Source of the DNA: Methanosarcinales archaeon Methan_01
GTDB taxonomy: Archaea > Halobacteriota > Methanosarcinia > Methanotrichales > Methanotrichaceae
Reading direction: 5' to 3'
Assembly (NCBI GenBank): GCA_001602645.1
Contig: LUYE01000038.1
Span: 1 to 64,000 of the forward strand
Length of the DNA stretch: 64,000 nt
Numbering within the stretch: the stretch's first letter is position 1; every line of letters begins with the position of its first letter. The position numbers and the translations under genes are program-made. Below, piece after piece: positions 27,070-35,420 of this stretch. The notes below the pieces were generated by a model that saw only the letters and a list, made by a program, of their open reading frames with translations, did not search any database and was not told the origin of the DNA.

Positions 27070-28104
27070 TTACATGACGCCGAGGACCTTCAGGGGGTGG
27101 ACCCCTGCGCTCTGGAGAGCCTGTAGCTCTTCCGCGCTCTCCAGGTGGAACTCCTTGATGGTGGTGACGTAGTTCTCAGGGGTGTCGGCTGAGTCCATTC
27201 GCTGCAGAGCACCGTTCAGCTTGGTGGCCCATTCAGGCCAGGAGGCCGTCTCGTTCGTGCTGGTGCTAGAGCTGGAGCTATTTCCTCCCAGAACCAGGCC
27301 GTCGCCAGCGTTGGAAGATCCGTCCCATCGAATGAATATTCCGGATATACCAGCTCCGTACTTCTCCTTTAGACCGCTCGATTCAGAAGCGGTGAGGGAC
27401 TTGACGAAGAGGCCGCTCTTTCCGGGGGTGCAGTCCCAGGCTATCTGGAAGTAGTCATCTTTGCACGAGTTGGGGCAGGCTATCACCTTGTAGCTCTGGT
27501 TGGCCGGGTCTTCGATGGGGAGCTCTTTCTCCACGTACTTAGCCAGCATGAAGCCGCTGATGAGCCCGGGGCAGATGTGGTCGTGTAATTGGGCTGCCTT
27601 CATGAGCACGAATGGGGTATTCTCGTGAGCCCAAACGTTGGCGAAGCGGATCATGCCGCTGAAGTTGCCCGGCTCCCAGGCGTCGACTTTGGCGAGGACC
27701 GTCTCAGCGTCGATCTTCTCCTTATCCTGGATCTCAAAGCCGGAGGCGTCAGCGTTCACCTTCATGTAGACCGCCTCGCCGGTGTTCTTGTTGAAGAACC
27801 CAAACCAGAGGGGCTTCCAGGGTGGGCTCAGGATGTTGAGCAGGTTCTCTTTTCCGGGGGTGCAGCCTGAGACCTCCATCACCGCATCCAGACACAGGTC
27901 GGTGGTCTGGCCATCGATCACCGGATATCCGGCGTTGGTGAGGGCCAGGACGTTCACATCTCCCTTCTCAAAACCCAGCTCCGTCATGGCGTAAGTTGTG
28001 GCGTCCGCGCCGAGCTGGTACATATCTGCCCCGTCCCCTATCGCCATCCCTGGCACCAGGGAGATCAGGAGCAGAACTGCCACTTCTAATTTATACATTT
28101 TCAC
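27070..28104 (-). CDS. Secreted FmdE-family protein, copy 1
   Basis: The protein is 344 residues from GTG 28104 (alternative ATG 28098), with GAGGCGAT upstream. It has a signal peptide (VAVLLLISLVPGMAIGDG). The FmdE signature is HDHICPGLISGFMLAKYVE (about residues 177-195), followed by ACPNSCKDDYFQIAWDCTPGK. The N-terminal half repeats part of the domain (LCLDAVMEVSGCTPGKENLL) but lacks the H-x-H-x-CPG motif, so the protein looks like two FmdE-type halves with only the second able to bind metal. A Ser/Thr-rich linker (SSSSSTSTNETA) precedes the tail. FmdE was named from the molybdenum formylmethanofuran dehydrogenase operon but is not a catalytic subunit; a secreted form suggests metal handling outside the cell. 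Confidence 0.82.
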   Translation of the reverse strand: MKMYKLEVAVLLLISLVPGMAIGDGADMYQLGADATTYAMTELGFEKGDVNVLALTNAGYPVIDGQTTDLCLDAVMEVSGCTPGKENLLNILSPPWKPLWFGFFNKNTGEAVYMKVNADASGFEIQDKEKIDAETVLAKVDAWEPGNFSGMIRFANVWAHENTPFVLMKAAQLHDHICPGLISGFMLAKYVEKELPIEDPANQSYKVIACPNSCKDDYFQIAWDCTPGKSGLFVKSLTASESSGLKEKYGAGISGIFIRWDGSSNAGDGLVLGGNSSSSSTSTNETASWPEWATKLNGALQRMDSADTPENYVTTIKEFHLESAEELQALQSAGVHPLKVLGVM

Positions 28105-28150: not shown

Positions 28151-28350
28151 TTAGCTGAAATGGCAGACTAGGGCGCTGGTTTTGCACAGTTGTTGCCCTC
28201 AGAACAGCGCCCTCTTTGGGTGGAGGGCAAACGCTCTGGAGAGAGCCGCCATCTCAACGGAGATCATGGTGCGTTGATCGGCGTGCACTCTAGCAAGGAA
28301 TATATTGTAATTAGTATTAACTCTGTTGATTTAATTCATACTAGTCTTTT
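28151..28350 (-). promoter_or_regulatory. Conserved structured leader of FmdE copy 1, with promoter at its distal end
   Basis: This region aligns over about 190 bases with the DNA upstream of FmdE copy 2. It contains two interleaved complementary pairs: 28171-28178 (GGGCGCTG) with 28205-28212 (CAGCGCCC), and 28194-28200 (TGCCCTC) with 28223-28229 (GAGGGCA). That is an H-type pseudoknot arrangement if transcribed. A distal AT-rich part (28295-28344) holds TAATTAGTATTAA and an ATTTAATTCATACTAG motif shared with copy 2. It fits a 5' leader RNA of about 200 bases with a cis-regulatory role. Function is inferred from conservation and structure only. Confidence 0.5.
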
Positions 28351-28477
28351 GGACCCCGATCATCGGCATGATGGGGAGGCCAGGATACTATCCTGGCGGG
28401 AAAAAAGCCATGCACTGCCAAAGATCTAGATGAAAAGTGGGGGGGATGATCAGATCCACCCCCGAATCCAATCTATC

Positions 28478-29512
28478 TCAGGTCTCTACACCCAGCACCT
28501 TCAGGGGGTTTACGCCCGCTCCCTGGAGGGCTACCAGCTCGTCGTTGTTCGCGAGGCTGAACTCCTTGATCGTCGAGACGAACTCTTCGGGGGCGTCGGC
28601 GGCGTCCATCAGGACAATGTCCTCCTTTACCCGATAGGCCCAGCTCGGCCAGGTGTCGATGTTGCTCATGTTCCCGGCCTTGTCAAAGTCGAACCCGAGG
28701 ACCAGGCCGTCACCGGTGCTGGAAGATCCGTCCCAGCGGATGAATATTCCGGCGACCCTCGTCCCGTACTTCTCGGTCAGGGCGGTCGTCTCAACGTCGG
28801 TGAGTTTCTTGACGAAGAGGCCGCTCTTGCCGGGGGTGCAGTCCCAGGCCACCTGGAAGTAGTCGTCCTTGCACCAGTTGGGACAGGCTATCACCTTGTA
28901 GCTCTGGTTGGCGGGGTCCTCGATGGGAAGCGTCTTCTCCACATACTTCGCGAGCAAGAAGCCGCTGGAGACACCGGGGCAGATGTGGTCGTGGAGCTGG
29001 ACCGCCTTCATGAAGACGTAAGGCGTATTCTCGTGGGCCCAGACGTTGGCGATGGGCATCATGTGGCTGAAGTTGCCCGGCTCCCAGCCCTCGACGTTGG
29101 CGAGGATCGTCTCGGCGTCGATCTTCTCCTTATCCTGGATCTCGAAGCCGGAGGCGTCGGCGTTCGCCTTCATGTAGACCGCCTCCCCCGTATTGCTGTT
29201 ATAGAAGCCGAACCAGAGGGGCTTCCAGGGGGCGGAGAGGATGTTGATCAGGTTCTCTTTTCCTGGACTAGAGCCGGTCGCCTCCATCACGGCGTCGAGG
29301 CAGAGATCGGTCGTCTGGCCGTCGATCACCGGGTATCCGGCGTTGGTGAGGGCCAGGACGTTCGCGTCACCCTTCTCAAACCCCAGCTCTGCCATGGCGT
29401 ACTCTGCGGCGTCTGCGCCGAGCTGGTACATATCCACCCCTTCGGCCATGGCCATCCCCGGGACCAGGGCCAGAAGGAGGAGGGTCGTCGCTATAACTCG
29501 ATCCATCTTCAT
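28478..29512 (-). CDS. Secreted FmdE-family protein, copy 2
   Basis: This is a 344-residue tandem paralogue of the protein at 27070-28104, equal in length and highly similar (KWKPLWFGF-type block, NQSYKVIACPN). The start is ATG 29512, with GGGTGATGAT upstream and a signal peptide (ATTLLLLALVPGMAMAEG). The metal site HDHICPGVSSGFLLAKYVEK is intact, and a second Cys pair lies in ACPNWCKDDYF and DCTPGK. In the degenerate N-terminal half the Cys of GCTPGK has become Ser (GSSPGK), further evidence that this half no longer binds metal. The Ser-rich linker of copy 1 is absent. Both genes read toward the left, and each has its own leader. Confidence 0.82.
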   Translation of the reverse strand: MKMDRVIATTLLLLALVPGMAMAEGVDMYQLGADAAEYAMAELGFEKGDANVLALTNAGYPVIDGQTTDLCLDAVMEATGSSPGKENLINILSAPWKPLWFGFYNSNTGEAVYMKANADASGFEIQDKEKIDAETILANVEGWEPGNFSHMMPIANVWAHENTPYVFMKAVQLHDHICPGVSSGFLLAKYVEKTLPIEDPANQSYKVIACPNWCKDDYFQVAWDCTPGKSGLFVKKLTDVETTALTEKYGTRVAGIFIRWDGSSSTGDGLVLGFDFDKAGNMSNIDTWPSWAYRVKEDIVLMDAADAPEEFVSTIKEFSLANNDELVALQGAGVNPLKVLGVET

Positions 29513-29579
29513 ATCATCACCCTATTCCTATGCCTTTTTATCTGCGAATACATGATACGCAAGGCGCTAAGAGTAAGAC

Positions 29580-29620
29580 TGAATTATTTATAACGATTTT
29601 GGTTGAAATTCATATTAAAT
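29580..29620 (-). promoter_or_regulatory. Proximal promoter of FmdE copy 2
   Basis: On the reverse strand, ATTTAATATGAATTTCAACC is followed by TTATAAATAATTC, a TATA-like box about 75 bases before the start codon. The same upstream motif (TA-x-TATGAATT) recurs at the distal promoter near 29843-29857 and at the FmdE copy 1 promoter. Copy 2 may therefore be read from two promoters, only one of which includes the structured leader. Confidence 0.4.
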
Positions 29621-29662
29621 AATATTTTGTTTAAATAAACTCATATTTTTTGCAAGTCTGCA

Positions 29663-29860
29663 GCGGCTAAAATGGCAGAAGAGGGGCGCTGGTTCCGAGC
29701 AGGCACTGCCCTCGGAGACAGCGCCCCTACTGGATGGAGGGCATTGGCCTATGGAGGGATGCCGTGTCTGAGGAGGTCATGGCATGGTGTCTGTCTTGCA
29801 CCCCATCGGCATCAATATCGTAATTAGTAATAAATCTTTCGGTTAAATTCATACTAGATC
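29663..29860 (-). promoter_or_regulatory. Conserved structured leader upstream of FmdE copy 2, with distal promoter
   Basis: This is homologous to the leader at 28151-28350. The same interleaved pairs are present: 29683-29691 (GGGGCGCTG) with 29719-29727 (CAGCGCCCC), and 29707-29713 (TGCCCTC) with 29737-29743 (GAGGGCA). The outermost pair of the first stem is G-C here and A-T in the other copy, one compensatory change. CCGAG (29695-29699) can also pair with CTCGG (29711-29715), which would compete with the second stem. The distal end holds TAATTAGTAATAAA (29821-29834) and the TTAAATTCATACTAG motif (29843-29857). The remaining DNA to 29988 contains no gene I can support. Confidence 0.5.
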
Positions 29861-31740: not shown

Positions 31741-32916
31741 TCAGCTTTCCTGCGGGTACGCCCAAATTCCTTGGTAGGGAGCGCCCAGCCACTTCTCAAA
31801 GTATTCTTCATGAATCTCATTGGGATCTATATCCTGGAGGTACTCTGGATATAACCACTTGGCAATATAATAGGCTGCGATGACACCCCTAGGAGCACCC
31901 TCGGAGCAGTAGCCATGAAGCAGATAGATCCGTCCATTATTGGCCGCATCTGTGTTCATGATGCCCGGTCGATTTCGGGTTAGCTCCAAATATTGGTTCA
32001 GGCTTTCAGTCGTATCGGAAGGATAGTAATCAAGGGCAGGGCCAGGTGCCCATTCACTCATAGTTGCGGCTATTATGACGGCATCTGGATCTTCAGTTAG
32101 GATCCATTCTGGATCTACATCTAAAAAGGACGATTCGAAACCGAGATCTTTTCCGATATTGATGCCCCCTGCCGAGGTTATTGCATGATGCAGACCAGAA
32201 TTAGGCGCAGCCGCAAATAAATAATGATGGTTGCTTTCTCCGTAGACACTTAACCTATTTTCTGGAGGGATAGTTTCAACGATCTCAGCGAGCTGACTCT
32301 TGTAATCACCATTCCAGCGAAGGAACTCTTCTGCTCGCTCTTCCTTCTCCAACACTTTCCCTAAACACTTAAGATCAGTCTCAAATGTAGTCCAATTCCG
32401 AGTAGATAATCTCAAGAAAGTTATCCCTGCGTGTTCCATAGCATCTTTTTGGTCAAATGCGGTGTTAACAATGTCTGGATTTAACTCAATGATCTTCTCA
32501 TAGTCGATCGAATTCCAGGCACCAACAGTCGACTTCGAATCCATTCCAGGAATCCAACCAAAAACCTCCTGTTGTGTCGAGGTTACACCTACGACCTTGT
32601 CTAATGCGTCGAGGATGAATAGCATCTCAATAGACCATGATGGTGTAGATATTATTCCATTCACTGGCTTATATATCGTTACTGTATCTCCATACGAGTT
32701 AGTGACTGTGATGGGATATTTTTCATGTATATGCTTGATCTCCTCCAGCTCATCGGATGTTATCTTCCCCTCACTGTAGGATTGCTCCGCCAATTCCAGC
32801 TCTTCGTCGGAGACGATCATGTCGCCGTCAGCGTCTCCAGGGACCACGATACCTTGCGCGCTCGCTGTAGCAAAGATCAGCGAGAGGCAAACCAATGCCA
32901 ATAAGGCCGTTCTCAT
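31741..32916 (-). CDS. EF-hand-bearing periplasmic binding protein (BtuF/FepB-like), array member 1
   Basis: The protein is 391 residues. A signal peptide (MRTALLALVCLSLIFATASA) is followed by one calcium-loop motif (DADGDMIVSDEE) and a helical linker (YSEGKITSDELEEIKHIHEK). Then comes a class III (PF01497) binding protein: VTIYKPVNGIIS, LDALDKVVGVTST, YEKIIELNPDIV, LLHGYCSEGA and AKWLYPEYLQDIDP. Such proteins deliver iron chelates, corrinoids or related ligands to a membrane permease, but no FecCD-type permease is in this window. It follows member 2 by 21 bases with GGAGG before the start, so members 3, 2 and 1 form one leftward operon. Ligand unknown. Confidence 0.83.
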   Translation of the reverse strand: MRTALLALVCLSLIFATASAQGIVVPGDADGDMIVSDEELELAEQSYSEGKITSDELEEIKHIHEKYPITVTNSYGDTVTIYKPVNGIISTPSWSIEMLFILDALDKVVGVTSTQQEVFGWIPGMDSKSTVGAWNSIDYEKIIELNPDIVNTAFDQKDAMEHAGITFLRLSTRNWTTFETDLKCLGKVLEKEERAEEFLRWNGDYKSQLAEIVETIPPENRLSVYGESNHHYLFAAAPNSGLHHAITSAGGINIGKDLGFESSFLDVDPEWILTEDPDAVIIAATMSEWAPGPALDYYPSDTTESLNQYLELTRNRPGIMNTDAANNGRIYLLHGYCSEGAPRGVIAAYYIAKWLYPEYLQDIDPNEIHEEYFEKWLGAPYQGIWAYPQES

Positions 32917-32937
32917 TTACAATCCTCCTCTACAAAT

Positions 32938-34125
32938 TCAGGCGGTCGCCTGGGGATATGCCCAAACTCCCTGATAGGGCACGCTCAGCCACTCTTCGAA
33001 GTACTCCCTATGGATGGCCTCCGGATCGAGGTCTGCAAACTCTTCTGGATAGAACCATTTGGCCATATAAACAGCAGCTATAACAGCCTTACAACTCGTG
33101 AAACTGGTATCACCATCTAACACATAGACGTTACCGTTCTTGACCGCATCCATTTGCTTCCATCCATCCCATTGGGATGCTTCATCTATGAATTTCTTGG
33201 CATTATCACCGTTTTCCAGTTGATATCCTGTAAGGTAAGATGCCGACGGATCATAGTCATGGAAAGCAGGGATGATAATAACCTCTGGTTTCTGTTCTAG
33301 AACCCACTCTGGGTCCACTTCTACGTAATAAAGCTTATCTAAAATGCCAGCTATGTTGAAACCACCTGCAAGAGTTATAGCATCGTGTATGCCTGACGTC
33401 CGGGCTCCTGTACTCCATGGCAACTCGTTAGCATAATCGTTGTAAACTCGTCGCTTAGGCTCTATGTTAGCGGTTTTTTCTCTGATATCAATAAGGTAAC
33501 TCTCCCACCAGGTGAGAAATTCTTCTGCTCGCTCTTCTTCTTCCATCAATTTAGCTAGAGTTCGGAAGTTTTCTTCGAACGTGTCCAGGCTAGATAGATC
33601 TAATACGATTACTGTAGTGCCAATCGGATTTAACTTATCCTCCACCTCATCTATAGTCCTAGTTGAACCAATTGCATAGACATCAGGCATATTTTCAATC
33701 ACTGCCTCAAAATCTATCTCCTTATACTCCCCCACAGAGGGCTTATCTTCGATGCCCGGTATATAGAAGAAACACTTTTTGGCGGTGTTTGTTACTGCAG
33801 CAAGCTTATCCAGTGCGCCCAATATGAAAACGGGTTCATACTCAAACGTGGGTTGAATTATCATTCGTTCTACAGGCTTGTATATCGTCACCTCTCTATC
33901 AGCAGAATCCACGATTGTGATGGGATATTTTTCATGTATATGCTTGATCTCCTCCAGCTCATCAGATGTTATCTTCCCCTCACTGTAGGATTGCTCCGCC
34001 AATTCCAGCTCTTCGTCGGAGACTATCTTGTCGCCGTCAGCGTCTCCAGGGACCAAGATACCTTGCGCGCTCGCTGTAGCAAAGATCAGCGAGAGGCAAA
34101 CCAATGCCAATAAGGCCGTTCTCAT
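32938..34125 (-). CDS. EF-hand-bearing periplasmic binding protein (BtuF/FepB-like), array member 2
   Basis: The protein is 395 residues. The first 70 or so (signal peptide, DADGDKIVSDEE loop, KITSDELEEIKHIHEKYP linker) are almost identical to member 1, down to the DNA. The ligand domain then differs strongly (VTIYKPVERMIIQPTFEYEP, IPGIEDKPSVGEYKEIDFEA, AGGFNIAGILDKLYYVEVDP). The last 50 residues are again close (AKWFYPEEFADLDPEAIHRE, VPYQGVWAYPQATA). Conserved ends with a divergent middle suggest selection for different ligands or domain swapping. It lies 21 bases downstream of member 3 with the same GGAGG site. It is exported and probably lipid-free, as no lipobox Cys is seen. Confidence 0.83.
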   Translation of the reverse strand: MRTALLALVCLSLIFATASAQGILVPGDADGDKIVSDEELELAEQSYSEGKITSDELEEIKHIHEKYPITIVDSADREVTIYKPVERMIIQPTFEYEPVFILGALDKLAAVTNTAKKCFFYIPGIEDKPSVGEYKEIDFEAVIENMPDVYAIGSTRTIDEVEDKLNPIGTTVIVLDLSSLDTFEENFRTLAKLMEEEERAEEFLTWWESYLIDIREKTANIEPKRRVYNDYANELPWSTGARTSGIHDAITLAGGFNIAGILDKLYYVEVDPEWVLEQKPEVIIIPAFHDYDPSASYLTGYQLENGDNAKKFIDEASQWDGWKQMDAVKNGNVYVLDGDTSFTSCKAVIAAVYMAKWFYPEEFADLDPEAIHREYFEEWLSVPYQGVWAYPQATA

Positions 34126-34146
34126 TTACAATCCTCCTCTACAAAT

Positions 34147-35313
34147 TCAGGCGGTCGCCTGAGGATAAGTCCAAACCCCCTGATAGGGTGCGCCCAACCA
34201 TTCTTCGATGTACTCTCTATGAAGTTCTTGGGGATTCATTTCAGCAAATTGTTCTGGGTAGAACCACTTGGCACAATAAGAGATGCCTATGGGGGCACTA
34301 CAACTTCCTAGAAGGTTCATTCCGTCAATTAAATAAATCCTACGAGACTTGCCCGCAATCGTCTCTCTTAATACCTCGTTATTGTGTAGCCCTTCTACGA
34401 CTTGTTTCGCGTTTTCAGAACTCTCCACGAAGTATCCAACGAGTTCGCTTGACCATCCCGTGGCAACAACTACTTCAGGATCCACATCAAGAATCCATTC
34501 GGGATCAACTGTAACGCTATAATCTCCTGGAAGCGCGCTTACAATATTATAACCCCCGGCATTTGTTATTATGTCATGAATGCCAGAACCAATTGTATTG
34601 CTCTTCCAAGTTTCAAGTGTATCGGCACCACTAGTAAATACGCGAACCTTCGGTTCTATCCCTTCAGTCGCATCTTTTATCTGAGTTAAATGGCTATTTC
34701 GCCATATTATGTACTCTTCAGCTCGCGCTTCTTCCTCCAATAATCTTGCCAGAATGTCAAATTCGTATTCGAATTTATCGAGCTCTGCAAACTTCAAGAC
34801 GATTATTGGAATATTTGCAGGCTCCAATATTTCCTCAATATCGGGCCGTTCCCTAAAAGTAAGAACTATGTCTGGAGCAAGCTCTATAATTTTTTCATAA
34901 TCGAGTTCCTGATATCCGCCAATTGTAGGCTTGTCTTCCATTTCAGGTACCCATGAATAGCACTCTTGTGCTGTTGTGGTTATCCCCGCAAGTTTGTCTT
35001 GGGCACCAAGAACAAAAACTGGTTCATATAATGTAGTGGGTTGAATAATTATTTTCCGTACCGGTTTGTATATCGTCACAGTTCTATCAGCAGAATCTAC
35101 GATTGTTATGGGATATTTTTCATGTATGTGCTTGATCTCTTCCAGCTCATCGGATGTTGTCTTCCCCTCACTGTAGGATTGCTCCGCCAATCTCAGCTCT
35201 TCGTCGGAGACGATCATGTCGCCGTCAGCATCTCCGGGGACCACGATACCTTGCGCGCTCGCTGTAGCAAAGATCAGCGAGAGGCAAACCAATACCAATA
35301 AGGCCGTTCTCAT
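34147..35313 (-). CDS. EF-hand-bearing periplasmic binding protein (BtuF/FepB-like), array member 3
   Basis: The protein is 388 residues from ATG 35313 (GGAGAGATT upstream); the frame extends to 35367 but the signal peptide MRTALLVLVCLSLIFATASA fixes the start. It has the same EF-hand module (DADGDMIVSDEELRLAEQ) and linker as members 1 and 2, then a distinct ligand domain: VTIYKPVRKIIIQPTTLYEP, LDYEKIIELAPDIVLTF, NAGGYNIVSALPGDYSVTVD. It ends GAPYQGVWTYPQATA. It is first in the three-gene operon. AT-rich DNA from about 35345 to 35410 upstream contains the likely promoter. Confidence 0.83.
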   Translation of the reverse strand: MRTALLVLVCLSLIFATASAQGIVVPGDADGDMIVSDEELRLAEQSYSEGKTTSDELEEIKHIHEKYPITIVDSADRTVTIYKPVRKIIIQPTTLYEPVFVLGAQDKLAGITTTAQECYSWVPEMEDKPTIGGYQELDYEKIIELAPDIVLTFRERPDIEEILEPANIPIIVLKFAELDKFEYEFDILARLLEEEARAEEYIIWRNSHLTQIKDATEGIEPKVRVFTSGADTLETWKSNTIGSGIHDIITNAGGYNIVSALPGDYSVTVDPEWILDVDPEVVVATGWSSELVGYFVESSENAKQVVEGLHNNEVLRETIAGKSRRIYLIDGMNLLGSCSAPIGISYCAKWFYPEQFAEMNPQELHREYIEEWLGAPYQGVWTYPQATA

Positions 35314-35344
35314 CTTCAATCTCTCCAGCACAAATCTTTGAATA

Positions 35345-35420
35345 CTAATCCAGAGTAAAATCATCACAAGTATTAATAATTAACTATATAATATTATCAA
35401 TAAAAAATAAAAAAAACGTA
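35345..35420. promoter_or_regulatory. AT-rich promoter region of the three-gene binding-protein operon
   Basis: On the reverse strand, AT-only runs such as TTGATAATATTATATAGTTA and TTAATTATTAATACTTG lie 40-90 bases before the start of member 3. I see several TATA-like options and cannot pick one. Nothing else is recognisable between here and the methyltransferase remnant that begins near 35560. Confidence 0.35.

Follow-up and report, generated by a model that had tools for sequence, protein, structure and literature searches.

Upstream of the two FmdE genes in the window (the 64,000-nucleotide stretch of DNA analysed in this study, from a genome of the Methanothrix harundinacea group, genus g1, family Methanotrichaceae) are two copies of a conserved element that we lean towards regarding as an autonomous small RNA gene with its own promoter, most likely masking ribosome binding sites by base pairing. 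The gene would specify a noncoding RNA of about 135 nt, transcribed from its own BRE/TATA promoter and inherited beside FmdE in one genus of the Methanotrichaceae; copies of the element also occur without FmdE. The predicted fold combines a GC-rich 3' hairpin with a flexible 5' domain exposing ACCUCCU, and the RNA would end in CUUCUGCCAU. The conservation of the element, its promoter anatomy, the covariation of its hairpin, and its orphan orthologues are established observations. Its own promoter, together with its occurrence away from FmdE, makes a small RNA gene likelier than a sensor that forms part of the FmdE mRNA.

Homologous leaders of two FmdE genes

Both FmdE genes are on the minus strand and match PF02663: FmdE gene 2 (28478..29512; E 4.2e-21) encodes a secreted FmdE-domain protein, and FmdE gene 1 (27070..28104; E 9.4e-21) has a single promoter-like match upstream. 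The RNA is therefore the minus strand of 28159-28291 for copy 1 (133 nt; 98.3 bits with covariance model R1) and of 29671-29804 for copy 2 (134 nt; 138.8 bits), the latter being a conserved block from about 29 nt after the TATA to CUUCUGCCAU.

An earlier note on this DNA had described the two leaders as homologous and as sharing two interleaved sets of complementary segments, and alignment of both leaders bears this out. GGGCGCTG and CAGCGCCC are complementary at 28171-28178/28205-28212 in copy 1 and 29684-29691/29719-29726 in copy 2, and a ninth pair, which as claimed is A-T in copy 1 (28170-28213) and G-C in copy 2 (29683-29727), completes a hairpin with its 5' arm at 28205..28213 and 3' arm at 28170..28178 in copy 1, and at 29719..29727 and 29683..29691, with compensatory changes, in copy 2 (all minus strand). 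TGCCCTC and GAGGGCA are at 28194-28200/28223-28229 in copy 1 and 29707-29713/29737-29743 in copy 2, in the interleaved order. When the leaders were shuffled 2000 times with dinucleotide content kept, a perfect interleaved pattern of 8+7 bp arose only 7 times for copy 1 and 9 times for copy 2, so that it is above chance in both. Over the element, identity is 64% between the two copies and 70-88% between copy 2 and other species of the genus; the duplication is therefore not recent, or copy 1 is evolving fast.

Elsewhere in the window (31741-35367, minus strand), three consecutive genes encode periplasmic-binding-type proteins with nearly identical N-termini and an EF-hand/dockerin-like stretch (VPGDADGDMIVSDEELELAEQSYSEGKITSDELEEIKHIHEKYPI); the one tested matched Peripla_BP_2.

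Occurrence within and beyond the genus

DNA searches, followed by searches with R1 (12 sequences), identified 12 copies of the element, about 133 nt long, with E-values from 1e-19 to 2e-32; they come from eight of the nine genomes of the genus. R1 was run against the order, against 30 genomes at higher sensitivity, and against 238 genomes of the class, of which the 229 outside the genus contained no credible copy. The three strongest matches beyond the 12 copies, two in other genera (G002, E 7e-4; G044) and a second match in G011, are inside coding genes and were taken as chance.

The element precedes FmdE in the same orientation in eight genomes, at orthologous loci, and the window has two such pairs. 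This arrangement favors a cis-acting 5' leader of FmdE (a riboswitch or attenuator), in which transcription from the upstream promoter (P1) would read through, binding of a ligand, metal, or protein would set expression, and a second promoter (P2) would be an unregulated start; weighed against all of the evidence, this explanation is rather unlikely. Two orphan copies (G012:C45 and G013:C1) have no FmdE beside them, and are orthologous to each other from the promoter to about 230 nt, while the DNA upstream is unrelated. The next gene after the G012 orphan is convergent. Such orthologues without a downstream gene argue against a leader, as does G014, in which FmdE and its promoter P2 are retained but the element is reduced to a 3' remnant.

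At the copy in G007 (G007:C205, L056 3585-5045), two small genes are found about 500 nt further on instead of FmdE; by eye, they resemble genes for nitrogenase-cofactor-binding proteins.

Neither the window nor any of 13 related loci matched an Rfam family at the gathering threshold. At a low threshold, almost all matches were to microRNA models, far below the thresholds of those models, and none was credible. The earlier note recognised no known class in the leaders; no Rfam riboswitch was matched, and the predicted RNA is apparently previously undescribed.

Two promoters at the FmdE loci

Each element is preceded by a promoter with the pattern TATGAATTTAACCRAAAGATTTATTAC. The distance from the first TATA base to the first base of the element is 29 nt in ten of the 12 copies and 28 nt in one. 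For copy 1 of the window, the match was to the downstream hexamer alone, 22 nt from the element. A spacing of about 28-29 nt from the TATA is about where archaeal transcription begins. P1 of copy 2 (29817..29853, minus strand) has the BRE-like TATGAATTTAACCGAAA and the TATA sequence GATTTATTAC, while the alignment of both leaders places the P1 of copy 1, promoter-like but altered (TATGAATTAAATCAACAGAGTTAATAC), at 28303..28340 on the same strand. In the g1 genomes scanned, the P1 pattern was found only in front of elements.

When the eight orthologous FmdE loci are compared, mean identity rises from 17-48% upstream to 95% and 88% over P1; it is 59-93% within the element, 50-61% past its end, and 92% over P2 (TATGAATTTCAACCAAAATCGTTATAAATA), which for copy 2 is at 29585..29614 on the minus strand, between the element and FmdE. 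The 3' stretch CUCUUCUGCCAU (29672..29683, minus strand), complementary to AUGGCAGAAGAG, has 93% mean identity, followed by a drop to 53%. From this profile, high over P1, falling after CUUCUGCCAU, and high again over P2, the element and FmdE resemble two neighboring units whose upstream motifs are similar. P2 is downstream of the element in seven single-copy loci and at window copy 2. In the genus's other FmdE loci it is present throughout, matched by pattern everywhere but in G012, where it can be seen with a single base altered. In four genomes, the P2 pattern had one exact match per genome and none elsewhere. The earlier note mentioned neither the promoter-like sequence of each copy nor the second promoter between element 2 and its FmdE.

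That P2 is as strongly conserved as P1, and that in the common arrangement the element ends about 160 nt short of the FmdE start codon, are both contrary to a leader function. The exception is window copy 1: no second promoter was found before FmdE gene 1, which places this copy in a probable 5' leader, and it is probably part of the FmdE message. The lack of a clear U-tract terminator after the element also counts against an autonomous gene. The promoter anatomy suggests that the element is transcribed, yet not necessarily within the FmdE message. The proposal in the earlier note of a sensor controlling FmdE is retained in one part, a structured, undescribed RNA upstream of the gene (12 copies, a compensated hairpin, and no Rfam match), while the part concerning control is weakened by the separate FmdE promoters, the copies without FmdE, and the remnant in G014. 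The upstream promoter motif TATGAATTTnAACC is common to the element and FmdE, and from this we infer that the two are probably switched on together.

The same promoter type was also noted in a g1 genome (L094 from 1501; G011:C2:489734), followed by GACCUCC, a long GC-rich hairpin, and a CCCUCUCCC tail; this locus is possibly a third RNA of similar style.

Conserved hairpin and proposed pseudoknot

The 3' hairpin has compensatory changes at several pairs (including C-G/U-A at A3 84-120 and U-A/C-G at 87-117), and its inner stem differs in sequence between species with the pairing compensated. Four pairs have two-sided change, a level matched by 86 of 500 column shuffles; the signal is modest because the set is limited to 12 related sequences. 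Compensatory pairs are also present in the orphan from G013.

The earlier note had joined the two sets of complementary segments into the core of an H-type pseudoknot, and it is this claim that failed when covariation was examined across homologues. In the second helix (UUGCCC/GGGCAA; in copy 2 the upstream half UGCCCUC is at 29737..29743, minus strand, and its partner GAGGGCA at 29707-29713), two-sided change is present in none of the six pairs among 12 sequences, with seven broken cells and none compensated. The covariation score is lower than that of shuffles, and all departures disrupt pairing except one from U-A to U-G. The GCCCUC side is invariant in 12 of 12 copies, even where its partner is lost. 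Since the second helix has no two-sided change and the departures break it, the pseudoknot proposed from the window is judged unsupported, although not disproved, and its failure to covary also counts against a leader of FmdE built around it. Pseudoknots are present in riboswitches such as preQ1-I, SAM-II, and fluoride, which the element resembles in having interleaved complementary segments in a leader; however, it differs from them in the lack of covariation in the second helix, in having copies without a downstream gene, and in having no match to an Rfam riboswitch.

The 5' domain has rival pairings (GGGGUGC/GCAUCCC and AUGYY/GRCAU), none clearly supported. In computed folds, ACCUCC and UCUGCCA are largely single-stranded. 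The conserved, anti-Shine-Dalgarno-like ACCUCCU (29771..29777 in copy 2, minus strand) has a computed unpaired probability of 0.55-0.91, compared with 0.37-0.53 for whole elements.

Conservation could also be due to an antisense gene for a small protein (ATG GCA GAA GAR ...), with the RNA fold as a by-product, since translation of that strand begins MAEEG in nine of 12 copies and GGAG is upstream in several. However, 1-nt indels shift the downstream frame between species, copy 1 has a stop at codon 4, the G008 copy has no ATG and contains stops, stops are also present in G013 and both orphans, and the conserved promoters face the other way. No conserved reading frame was found on either strand of the element; this candidate is largely refuted and highly improbable. 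In the window, the frame antisense to copy 2 (29672-29825, plus strand) is open for about 50 codons (MAEEGRWFRAG...), with the start kept in nine of 12 copies and the frame shifting between species.

Predicted action on ribosome binding sites

ACCUCCU is complementary to the Shine-Dalgarno sequence and CUUCUGCCAU is complementary to AUG GCA GAA G. In the preferred model of an autonomous small RNA, these anti-Shine-Dalgarno and anti-start-codon stretches would pair with target mRNAs and mask their ribosome binding sites, while the common upstream motif would turn on the RNA and FmdE together; transcription, base pairing, and co-regulation with FmdE are all predicted from sequence. Masking is proposed by analogy to sRNA154 (through its loop 2) and sRNA41 of Methanosarcina mazei, both of which repress translation in this way (PMC5867862). 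The element is like these two RNAs, by description and not by sequence, in being short, intergenic, from a methanogen of the same class, and composed of hairpins with stretches, predicted to be exposed, that are complementary to ribosome binding sites. It is unlike them in that its model R1, as well as model R3 described below, has no credible match outside the Methanotrichaceae among 238 genomes of the class, and in that there is no Rfam match.

A search for 21-nt antisense matches identified no conserved target mRNA: the matches were mainly the elements themselves, and the few others were about as numerous as with a reversed control. A search for GGAGG-N-AUGGCAGA gave many matches, among them, in several genomes, look-alikes (by eye) of hdrD, mtrB, and elongation factor 1-alpha. 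These candidates were dropped. Highly expressed genes often have start regions of this kind, and the longer antisense search found no conserved target, so no target is claimed.

A second RNA family in sister genera

A search for P1-type promoters, followed by a search with the DNA behind them, led to models R2 and R3. With R3 searched at E <= 0.01, they match at 45 places spread over 26 genomes, which belong to genera g2, g4, g8, and g11 (Methanothrix and sister genera). Model R3 covers loci L147-L158, L161, L063, L076, L085, L092, and L097. The family is absent from the nine g1 genomes, where the R1 element occurs instead, and has no Rfam match. Its fold of 96 positions is a three-way junction, which GAAGAG/CUCUUC closes. 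One hairpin loop carries CCUCCUUUACC and another loop CUGCCA, and the RNAs have a GC-rich hairpin and, as a tail, CUCCUCUUCU. Its covariation is strong: two-sided change is present in ten of 20 pairs (41 cells), a level reached by none of 500 shuffles, with an alignment fitted to the structure and thus favoring the result.

The short form of R3 is followed, about 40 nt downstream, by a conserved small ORF (MTSLMITDIRKS...) in 19 distinct places by sequence motif, while long-form copies are standalone and adjoin convergent genes. At L151 (minus strand, from 1460 downwards, about 40 nt past the RNA) and 18 other places, the ORF encodes a protein of about 90 residues beginning M(T)SLMITDIRKS, for which the first 60 residues have no Pfam match.

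The R3 family is like the window element in the kind of promoter (AACCRAAAGATTTATTACT), CCUCCU in a 5' hairpin loop, the CUGCCA motif, standalone copies, and a GC-rich 3' hairpin directly followed by CUCUUCUG. It is unlike the window element in having CUGCCA in a hairpin loop instead of at the 3' end, a three-way junction, and a length of 96 positions. On elements of the window type, model R3 scores 7-10 bits (E 2-10), which is not significant, and the case for common ancestry consequently rests on promoter type, motif order, and complementary distribution. Shared ancestry is likely but not proven, as a judgement and not a measurement.

The position of the short form ahead of a small ORF also favors a leader function for the window element. 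A related explanation is a dual-use module, a small RNA gene at some places and a leader at others, as in the sister family: R3 is standalone at L089, L160, L162, and L163, with a convergent neighbor 19-69 nt away, but leads the MITDIRKS small ORF elsewhere, and of the two copies in the window only one has P2. The homology on which this comparison depends is not established by the covariance model (7-10 bits at best on elements), and dual use is considered improbable. More tentatively than shared ancestry, the window element and R3 may together form one undescribed, Methanotrichaceae-wide class of RNA with anti-Shine-Dalgarno and anti-start-codon stretches, which would act as free small RNAs and as leaders of small-protein or FmdE genes, and would control translation.

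Implications

Methanothrix-type archaea are the main acetate-consuming methanogens, and the family is hard to handle genetically. A literature search found no description of regulatory RNAs in these archaea. If real, the two families would provide clade-wide RNA candidates with defined ends, promoters, and covariation, and the possible sister family R3 may be more valuable than the element in the window. They would also show whether the small RNAs that mask ribosome binding sites in Methanosarcina extend to the Methanotrichaceae.
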